A stretch of 64,000 bases of DNA from Halorhabdus rudnickae. GTDB lineage: Archaea > Halobacteriota > Halobacteria > Halobacteriales > Haloarculaceae. The position numbers and the translations under genes are program-made. The notes under the pieces are model-generated. The model was not told where the DNA came from, searched no databases, and was given only the letters and a program-made list of their open reading frames with translations. The first letter of the stretch is position 1. Every line of letters starts with the position of its first letter. The DNA is taken from positions 62,001 to 126,000 of the forward strand of contig NZ_CAAHFB010000006.1 in assembly GCF_900880625.1 (NCBI RefSeq), in the 5' to 3' direction. This document shows positions 53,249-55,439 of the stretch, piece after piece.

Positions 53249-53803
53249 ATGAGCAAAATCACGTTCCGCGCCGACGACGACCTCGTTGCCCAACTCGAGG
53301 CCTTCGACGCCTCGAAGAGCGAGGTCATGCGCGAGGCGTTGCGGGCCTTCCTCAAGGAGCCGAGTGGACCGTCTCCCACGGAGGGAGAGTCTGCCTCGGT
53401 GTCCGCGCCTGGGCCTACCTCGGCCGAGGAAAGTCTCGACGACCTCATCGAGGAGCGTGTCGACGCCGTCCTCGCAGACCGGCTCGGAACTGTCGGACGG
53501 TCCGGGACACAAGACGTCAACATCACGCTCTCGCTCGCAGACGCAGTTGTGACGCCGGAGCAGCGGACCGAGACCGGAGCCGAGGAACGAACCGCCACCC
53601 CCGAGAAAGGGGACGTCAGCGAGGATCGGACCTGCGCGAAGTGTGGCGAGACTGTCTCCGCGGAGCACGTCTACTGCCCCAACTGCGGGGAGAAAGCCTC
53701 CCACCGAGTCTTCTGTGAGTGTGGCGACGAGCTCCGCTCGGACTGGGCGTTCTGCCCGAGCTGTGGCCGTCGGACGGCAGCCGCCGACGTACTCGATCAG
53801 TAA
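53249..53803 (+). CDS. cdrL: CdrL-like cell-division regulator (RHH plus zinc ribbons)
   Basis: 184 residues. The N-terminal ribbon-helix-helix (KITFRADDDLVAQLEAFDAS, then EVMREALRAFL) is joined by an acidic linker to two C-terminal zinc ribbons (CAKCGETVSAEHVYCPNCGE and CECGDELRSDWAFCPSCGR). This matches CdrL, the long regulator that binds upstream of the cdrS-ftsZ2 operon in haloarchaea. Located directly upstream of that operon. I chose MSKITF rather than the ATG four codons earlier. Confidence 0.85.
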   Translation: MSKITFRADDDLVAQLEAFDASKSEVMREALRAFLKEPSGPSPTEGESASVSAPGPTSAEESLDDLIEERVDAVLADRLGTVGRSGTQDVNITLSLADAVVTPEQRTETGAEERTATPEKGDVSEDRTCAKCGETVSAEHVYCPNCGEKASHRVFCECGDELRSDWAFCPSCGRRTAAADVLDQ

Positions 53804-53855
53804 TCATCGCGTAAACGCACCTCTACGTGGCATTTACGCTATTCCTCGGGGGTGT

Positions 53856-54014
53856 GTCTTACACTAGGGGAAACCTTTATAACCCCTCACTCTGTGGTAC
53901 GGTAATGCGTAAGACGGGATCGTCTTACACCGTGGCGCACCGGGTGCAACCGTCCGCAGTCTGGCGGTTATGTGGTGTAAGACGAGCGGGCGACCCGCCG
54001 CGTCCGTCTTACCC
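53856..54014. promoter_or_regulatory. Five GTCTTAC boxes upstream of cdrS-ftsZ2
   Basis: GTCTTACAC at 53856-53864, the inverted pair GTAAGAC (53909-53915) / GTCTTACAC (53922-53930), GTGTAAGAC at 53975-53983 and GTCTTACCC at 54006-54014. The TATA-like CTTTATAACC (about 53874-53883) lies between the first and second boxes, so the leader carries most sites. Spacing and orientation suit RHH regulators such as CdrL or CdrS. The binding protein is inferred. Confidence 0.65.
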
Positions 54015-54032: not shown

Positions 54033-54221
54033 ATGGAGCGTGTGACACTACGGATTCCGAAGCAGCAGATCGAGGAGGTCGAACAGATGGTCGAAACGGG
54101 GGAATACCCTAACCGGAGCGAGGCGATCCGGTCGGCCGTCCGGGAAATGCTCGCCGAGCAGGACACGGGCAAGGAGCGCCCCTCGGAGAAACACAAGCGG
54201 CGAACCTGGGCGAAGGTGTAG
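54033..54221 (+). CDS. cdrS: CdrS-like short RHH regulator
   Basis: 62 residues: [20 protein letters not shown], then [17 protein letters not shown], a compact ribbon-helix-helix with a basic C-terminus. In haloarchaea CdrS is co-transcribed with ftsZ2 and regulates division and cell-shape genes. It ends 3 bp before ftsZ2. Confidence 0.92.
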
Positions 54222-54224
54222 ACC

Positions 54225-55439
54225 ATGCAGGACATAGTCAACTCGGCCCTCGAACACGAGGAACAGGAGAGTCGGGATGTCGACGCGGACGGCGAGGATT
54301 TCGGCGACCCGCGTATCGTGATCGTCGGCTGTGGCGGTGCCGGTAACAACACCGTCAATCGGCTGTACAACATCGGCGTCGAGGGTGCCGATACGATCGC
54401 GCTGAACACAGACAAACAACACCTCAAGATGATCGAGGCCGACACCAAGATCCTCGTCGGCAAGTCTCTCACCAACGGGCTCGGCGCGGGCGGCGACCCC
54501 TCGATGGGCGAGCGCGCAACCGAGATGGCTCAGGGGACGATCAAAGAGGTACTCGGCGACGCCGACCTCGTGTTCGTCACGGCCGGCATGGGTGGCGGGA
54601 CTGGTACTGGCGCGGCGCCCGTCGTCTCGAAGATCGCCAAAGAGCAGGGTGCGATCGTCGTCGGCATGGTCTCGACACCGTTCAACGTCGAGCGTGCGCG
54701 AACAGTCAAGGCCGAGGAAGGGCTGGAAAATCTGCGCAACGAGGCCGACTCGATCATCGTCCTGGACAACAACCGCCTGCTGGATTACGTCCCCAACCTG
54801 CCGATCGGCAAGGCTTTCTCGGTGATGGACCAGATCATCGCCGAGACGGTCAAGGGGATCTCCGAGACAATCACTCAACCGTCGCTTATCAACCTGGACT
54901 ACGCGGACATGTCCGCGATCATGAACCAGGGCGGCGTTGCAGTGATGCTCGTCGGCGAAACTCAAGACAAGAACAAGACCCAAGAGGTCGTCAGCGACGC
55001 GATGAACCACCCACTGCTGGACGTCGACTACCGCGGCGCCAGCGGTGGACTGGTCCACATCACCGGCGGCCCCGACCTGACGTTGGACGAGGCCGAGGGC
55101 ATCGCGAGCAACATCACCGACCGCCTGGAGGCTAATGCCAACGTCATCTGGGGTGCCCGCATCGAGGAAGAGTACAAGGGGAAGGTTCGCGTGATGGCGA
55201 TTATGACTGGCGTCCAGTCGGCCCAGGTTCTGGGTCCGACGACCCAGAAACAGGCCAACAAGTCCCGACAGGCCATCGAGGACGTGGACGTCGACGACGG
55301 AGCGTTCGATGCTGCAAGTAACGTGGACGCCGACTTCGACGGCAATTCGAGTTCCGGCGGGCGGAGCTTCGGCGAAACCGACGGCGGTCGAAACGCCGTC
55401 GAGAAAAACAACGGACTCGACGTCGTGCGGACAAACTGA
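54225..55439 (+). CDS. ftsZ2: Cell-division GTPase FtsZ2
   Basis: 404 residues. Nucleotide-binding [15 protein letters not shown], tubulin signature GGGTGTG at residues 123-129, and synergy loop [12 protein letters not shown] type ([16 protein letters not shown]). The N-terminus [10 protein letters not shown] and the cdrS linkage identify the FtsZ2 paralogue, which drives ring constriction; FtsZ1 is not in the window. The C-terminal tail ends in [10 protein letters not shown]. Confidence 0.95.

Follow-up and report, generated by a model that had tools for sequence, protein, structure and literature searches.

A conserved GTCTTAC box array between cdrL and cdrS-ftsZ2, probably an operator read chiefly by CdrL

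Why does the short interval between cdrL and the division operon cdrS-ftsZ2 hold five copies of one seven-base word, and what reads them? The window (the whole 64-kb stretch of DNA that was analysed) contains six copies of GTCTTAC against 4.09 ± 2.12 expected from shuffling, and five of the six are packed into 157 bp between cdrL and cdrS, so that the clustering is unusual and the window total is not. An earlier note on this DNA had described five copies in both orientations within 160 bp, most of them downstream of a TATA-like element; all five exact copies were found, and four lie downstream of TTTATA. The TATA box together with conservation predicts a cdrS leader of about 130 nt, which would be unusually long. 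The features of the locus are as follows.

53249-53803, plus strand: cdrL, with a ribbon-helix-helix N-terminus, the CdrL middle region and a double zinc ribbon (ORF list and Pfam)
53856-53862, plus strand: box 1, GTCTTAC, upstream of the TATA box (exact word search, as for boxes 2 to 5)
53870-53881, plus strand: BRE/TATA-like element (GAAACC, TTTATA), read from the sequence; TTTATA at 53876-53881
53903-53907, plus strand: predicted transcription start region, placed from the TATA position
53909-53915, minus strand: box 2, GTCTTAC
53922-53928, plus strand: box 3, GTCTTAC
53909-53928, no strand: inverted pair of boxes 2 and 3, GTAAGAC-N6-GTCTTAC, the sole pair in the source genome; N4 in most relatives
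53977-53983, minus strand: box 4, GTCTTAC
54006-54012, plus strand: box 5, GTCTTAC, directly before a purine-rich stretch and the start codon
54018-54022, plus strand: GGGGA before the cdrS start, conserved, a putative ribosome-binding stretch
54033-54221, plus strand: cdrS, 62-aa ribbon-helix-helix regulator (Pfam RHH_1, 1.8e-8)
54225-55439, plus strand: ftsZ2, tubulin/FtsZ division protein (Pfam Tubulin, 1.1e-44, and FtsZ_C)

The locus encodes a ribbon-helix-helix regulator, with CdrS above the Pfam RHH_1 cut-off and CdrL below it (16.3 bits, cut-off 20.5). The CdrL_M match also fell short (24.2 bits, cut-off 27), while the zinc ribbons and DZR of CdrL scored above cut-off. The CdrL N-terminus, M1-S2-K3-I4-T5-F6-R7, is invariant across 31 homologues. 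Residues 3, 5 and 7, which face DNA in ribbon-helix-helix structures such as NikR, are K, T and R in 31/31 CdrL sequences and R, T and R in 67/67 CdrS proteins encoded behind the haloarchaeal leaders described below. NikR is one of the closest relatives of CdrS with a solved structure; the structure prediction for CdrL was poor (mean pLDDT 66.7) and was left out of the argument.

Conservation and uniqueness of the array

A cdrS search of 59 related genomes, including the source genome, gave a clear match in 55 and only a weak match in two more. One leader was taken from each of the 55 (for G015, that of one of its two cdrS genes), and leaders of three named genomes, Halobacterium salinarum DSM 3754 among them, brought the set to 58. 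Nine further leaders came from genomes that, by similarity of one protein, appear to belong to the genus Haloferax; these Haloferax relatives served as stand-ins for Haloferax volcanii and made up 67 haloarchaeal leaders; L197-L200 and L205, read later, stand outside the 67-leader and control-region counts. With no prior choice of word, GTCTTAC was the top 7-mer (229 copies in 58/58 non-redundant leaders, 1.9 expected). The earlier note had staked its case on the motif recurring in orthologous cdrS promoters, and it does: all 67 leaders carry at least two exact boxes, and 29 carry five.

The layout is conserved along with the spelling. The inverted pair, allowing two mismatches, was present in 55/58 leaders, and among these 55 box 2 was exact in 54, box 3 in 54, box 5 in 49 and box 4 in 33, with box 1 within one mismatch in 50. 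Boxes 2 and 3 are spaced 11 bp apart in 41/55 leaders and 12-13 bp in 12 (13 bp in the window), so that short boxes are repeated about one helical turn apart here, as they are in the 11-bp register outside the order described below; the other haloarchaeal gaps are mostly 51-57 and 27-35 bp. Box 2 begins 30-34 bp from the start of the TATA element in 54/55 leaders (32 bp in 37). Plus-oriented copies of box 1 lie 51-53 bp before box 2 in 37/38 cases; for 6 of the 7 exact copies that are reversed, the distance is 61-65 bp, about one turn further. The leader of Hbt. salinarum DSM 3754 bears the same array as the window, and GGGGA occurs within the last 30 nt of 60/67 haloarchaeal cdrS leaders. In L048-L051, boxes 3 and 4 are 78-79 bp apart where 52-57 bp is usual, as if roughly two helical turns had been inserted. 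Upstream of box 1, at 53811-53845, the window also holds GTAAAC/GTTTAC words, which recur at -270 to -185 in 36/67 leaders, sometimes in both orientations; across the window, the frequency of GTAAACG boxes was not above chance.

Counted genome-wide, the pair occurs once per genome nearly throughout. The pattern GTAAGACN{1,8}GTCTTAC was found in 52/59 genomes, one copy each except for two in G015, and lay inside the cdrS leader in 51 of the 52; the exception, G052, has the pair and no cdrS match. In G015, whose assembly is 60% complete, cdrS is present twice and a separate pair accompanies each copy. Across the order, 373/392 Halobacteriales genomes and 340/345 good genomes had the pair, one copy each except for two in G384, compared to 7 genomes for the reversed control pattern; its position relative to cdrS was scored in the 59-genome set. 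Five good genomes have no exact pair (G096, G092, G269, G267 and G313), and the first two were read: G096, which appears to be Hbt. salinarum, with the same cdrS coordinates as the named genome, has GTGAGAC as box 2, and G092 has GTAAGAC followed by GTATGAC. A chance origin of the boxes was rejected on their clustering, the single pair per genome and the excess of 229 copies over 1.9 expected.

Which protein reads the boxes

By ChIP-seq, the only reproducible CdrL site in the Hbt. salinarum genome is upstream of cdrS-ftsZ2 (PMC7439475). CdrL as the box reader is well supported by this site, by the single pair per genome and by the poorer arrays of genomes that have no CdrL, and its binding to the individual boxes is predicted. 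Box 1 is present in 1/7 CdrL-less versus 49/51 CdrL-bearing genomes (Fisher p=5e-6), box 4 in 0/7 versus 33/51 (p=0.0016) and the pair in 4/7 versus 51/51 (p=0.0011), with shared ancestry ignored in each test. Three of the CdrL-less genomes (G035, G046 and G051) have only boxes 2 and 5 left; the loss of box 1 may simply accompany loss of the adjoining cdrL gene. The other four (G009, G011, G045 and G058), near-complete and lacking CdrL by profile search, keep the exact pair, indicating either that another protein reads it or that the CdrL losses are recent. A CdrL hidden elsewhere was rejected, a profile search of 11 genomes having returned weak, partial matches only, and no CdrL was found among the upstream ORFs of four of them.

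The spelling of CdrS sites bears directly on CdrS as the reader. Hfx. volcanii CdrS has 18 ChIP-seq sites, including ftsZ1 at -50 and dacZ at -47, and its own promoter is missing from the table that lists them (PMC8406309); the tagged CdrS was expressed from a plasmid, under a construct name that suggests an N-terminal tag. The published motif is given as a figure (PMC8406309), and the motif used here was derived from these two target promoters in the nine Haloferax relatives. Their ftsZ1 promoters carry GTC(A/G)GAC-N4-GTCTGAC upstream of a TATA-like element in 9/9 genomes (first box GTCAGAC in 4 and GTCGGAC in 5), and their dacZ promoters carry one GTCAGAC in 9/9, a single clear box and not two. 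The same nine genomes also keep GTAAGAC-N4-GTCTTAC in front of cdrS, and from this comparison CdrL and CdrS sites appear equal in layout and one base per box apart. The window's boxes are all GTCTTAC, with none of the GTCTGAC/GTCAGAC spelling of CdrS sites, and GTCTGAC occurs in 2/58 non-redundant haloarchaeal leaders. CdrS as the present main reader was rejected because its own promoter is outside the 18 sites (PMC8406309) and its targets in the Haloferax relatives are of the GTCTGAC type. The earlier note had proposed an operator of CdrL and/or CdrS: the CdrL half is well supported by ChIP-seq (PMC7439475) and the single pair, and the CdrS half is not supported for haloarchaea by the CdrS sites (PMC8406309). 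Such an array may, as the note proposed, make division control a multi-site switch.

We regard it as unlikely that CdrS reads the boxes on its own or as a mixed CdrS:CdrL dimer, acting alone where CdrL has been lost. Each box is a hybrid, GTC-T-TAC, with a GTC half as in CdrS sites and a GTA half; the recognition strands of the two proteins are nearly alike; and the pair persists in four CdrL-less genomes. The asymmetry of the box does not demand a heterodimer, however, since NikR homodimers reportedly read a similarly asymmetric GTATGA half-site. In Hbt. salinarum, ftsZ2 expression falls 1.3- to 2.2-fold when cdrS is deleted (PMC7439475), suggesting that CdrS may act at this promoter, directly or indirectly. 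Against this reading stand the same two facts on which CdrS was set aside as the main reader, namely that none of the 18 Hfx. volcanii sites (0/18) is its own promoter (PMC8406309) and that its targets in the Haloferax relatives are spelled GTCTGAC.

Over the 59 genomes, GTCAGACN{2,6}GTCTGAC gave 64 sites in 34 genomes, with 0 for the reversed control; this number is not used as a count of CdrS sites because many of the 3-base-gap sites among 30 inspected resemble insertion-sequence hairpins. Such sites (L147, L152, L156, L161, L164-L166 and L175) are GTCAGAC-N3-GTCTGAC with common flanks. In the window's genus and some relatives (L148, L153, L154 and L157-L160), GTCAGAC-N4-GTCTGAC stands directly before a small conserved gene of about 76-84 aa, a possible CdrS target. 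L162 has, near 1501, a GTCAGAC-N4-GTCTGAC pair 165 bp upstream of a ParA/Soj-like ORF; the soj genes of Hbt. salinarum are responsive to cdrS (PMC7439475).

It is quite improbable that a third regulator reads the boxes while CdrL occupies the promoter for some other reason. Retention of the pair in the four CdrL-less genomes would fit such a regulator, but the cdrL gene adjoins the array in most genomes, and the simplest candidate for reading one site per genome is the regulator whose ChIP-seq also gives one site per genome.

Control through RNA, with the transcribed and mutually complementary boxes 2-5 forming hairpins that govern translation or decay of cdrS-ftsZ2, is very improbable. In a predicted fold (z = -1.81), box 2 does pair with box 5 and box 3 with box 4, and in Hbt. 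salinarum the operon's ribosome occupancy does not track its mRNA level, suggesting post-transcriptional control of the operon (PMC8303175). However, the bases flanking the pair form a conserved mismatch (C in 57/59 and A in 58/59, pairing in 2/59), the flanks in general do not pair more than shuffles do, with p<0.1 at only two of the 12 positions tested (p=0.08 at position 3 and p=0.02 at position 11), the exact 11-bp register suits duplex DNA and not RNA, and box 1 lies upstream of the predicted promoter and so is not transcribed from it. Neither a known family (no Rfam match at gathering score) nor compensatory changes in the stems were found, and a hairpin as the main function was rejected on the conserved flank mismatch and the absence of a match at the Rfam gathering score.

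An 11-bp array outside the order

Leaders from outside the order bear on how the array arose. The phylum sample held 33 genomes outside the order with a cdrS match, presumably including methanogens, given the known content of the phylum. Twenty were fetched (L177-L196); L194 could not be read as cdrS and is excluded, which leaves 19 loci, or 17 after removal of near-copies, and all 19 have an FtsZ signature in the fetched stretch. Exact GTCTTAC occurs in 0/17 non-redundant outgroup leaders. The top 7-mer there is GTCTGAC/GTCAGAC, the spelling of the CdrS sites, with 29 copies in 15/17 non-redundant leaders versus 0.24 expected. Allowing one mismatch, the 19 leaders carry 69 boxes (6.1 expected), and of the 50 gaps between neighbouring boxes 44 measure an exact multiple of 11 bp, against 0.04 expected (at most 1 in 300 shuffles). 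The register is specific to 11, with 89/104 pairwise distances fitting that modulus compared to 0-3/104 for moduli 8, 9, 10, 12 and 13, and it extends over up to 77 bp. Four flanking control regions at the same loci held 2-10 boxes each and no 11-bp gaps.

CdrL is stated to be absent outside Halobacteria (PMC7439475). On the strength of these leaders, CdrS looks like the ancestral reader of the array, and the polarity of the change, GTCTGAC to GTCTTAC, is taken from the outgroup spelling. The simplest history that they suggest is one in which CdrS used an 11-bp array to control its own operon and the boxes were later, in haloarchaea, re-lettered for CdrL.

A proposed mechanism and its relation to known systems

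Our preferred reading is that the array is probably a double-stranded DNA operator for a ribbon-helix-helix regulator, chiefly CdrL, recoded from an ancestral CdrS array by one base per box. Conservation, uniqueness, spelling and spacing come from the present comparison, and CdrL occupancy in Hbt. salinarum and the lack of a CdrS site here in Hfx. volcanii from published work; the assignment of boxes to proteins, repression and the hand-over from CdrS to CdrL are what we infer from the two. Two dimers, spaced by about one helical turn, would sit on the inverted pair immediately downstream of the predicted start site. Extra contacts would come from box 1, on the far side of the TATA box, and from boxes 4 and 5 within the leader, the latter two perhaps serving as roadblocks or as aids to cooperative contact. 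Because the pair begins only a few bases beyond the predicted start, promoter escape should be blocked by a protein bound there; CdrL in this position would impede escape or the early part of elongation and in this way determine how much CdrS and FtsZ2 is made, and we expect it to limit and not to drive the operon. Since ftsZ2 is among the most highly expressed genes (PMC7439475), any repression would have to be partial or conditional. The older array would have been autoregulatory, read by CdrS as GTCTGAC in 11-bp register, and in the haloarchaeal lineage the change to GTCTTAC in each box would have removed CdrS and handed the array to a CdrS-like newcomer, CdrL.

The closest known system is the CdrL-bound cdrS-ftsZ2 promoter of Hbt. 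salinarum (PMC7439475), with the same operon, the same neighbouring gene and the same array. The word 'motif' does not occur in the main text of that paper, relative to which the boxes, their layout, their uniqueness and their ancestry are new. No description of the boxes was found in the literature searched, a search that did not extend to preprints and most subscription journals. The CdrS sites of Hfx. volcanii (PMC8406309) share a symmetric motif, and the ftsZ1 pair of the relatives lies at about the published distance; these sites differ from the array by one base per box, and the cdrS promoter is outside the 18. The NikR operator is GTATGA-N16-TCATAC, and the box variants GTATGAC/GTCATAC match its half-site. 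NikR, however, senses nickel and has half-sites set far apart, and CdrS, at 62 aa, is too small for a metal domain.

Type II plasmid partition by ParR-parC (PMC5016525) likewise sets a ribbon-helix-helix protein on tandem promoter repeats, in an autoregulated operon for a filament protein. That filament is actin-like ParM, whereas the cdrS operon encodes FtsZ, and the likeness is in layout only (PMC5016525). The cdrS boxes come close to being palindromes, and their spacing in haloarchaea is irregular: regular iterons like those of parC are seen in the single register of the outgroup, and in haloarchaea a spacing of about 11 bp is confined to boxes 2 and 3. That the ancestral leader was a parC-like scaffold, with CdrS on the 11-bp array tying the locus to FtsZ2 or the division ring, strikes us as a long shot; transcriptional control would then be a by-product, and haloarchaea would have shrunk the array and re-lettered it for CdrL. 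We know of no partition role for cdrS.

Read as an operator chiefly for CdrL, the array gives a candidate CdrL operator and would account for the single genomic site of CdrL. It would also be a readable instance of an operator array passing from one regulator to another by a change of one base per box, with the reading residue at position 3 being K in CdrL and R in CdrS. Finally, the 11-bp array in relatives opens autoregulation of an archaeal FtsZ operon to direct testing with short oligonucleotides.
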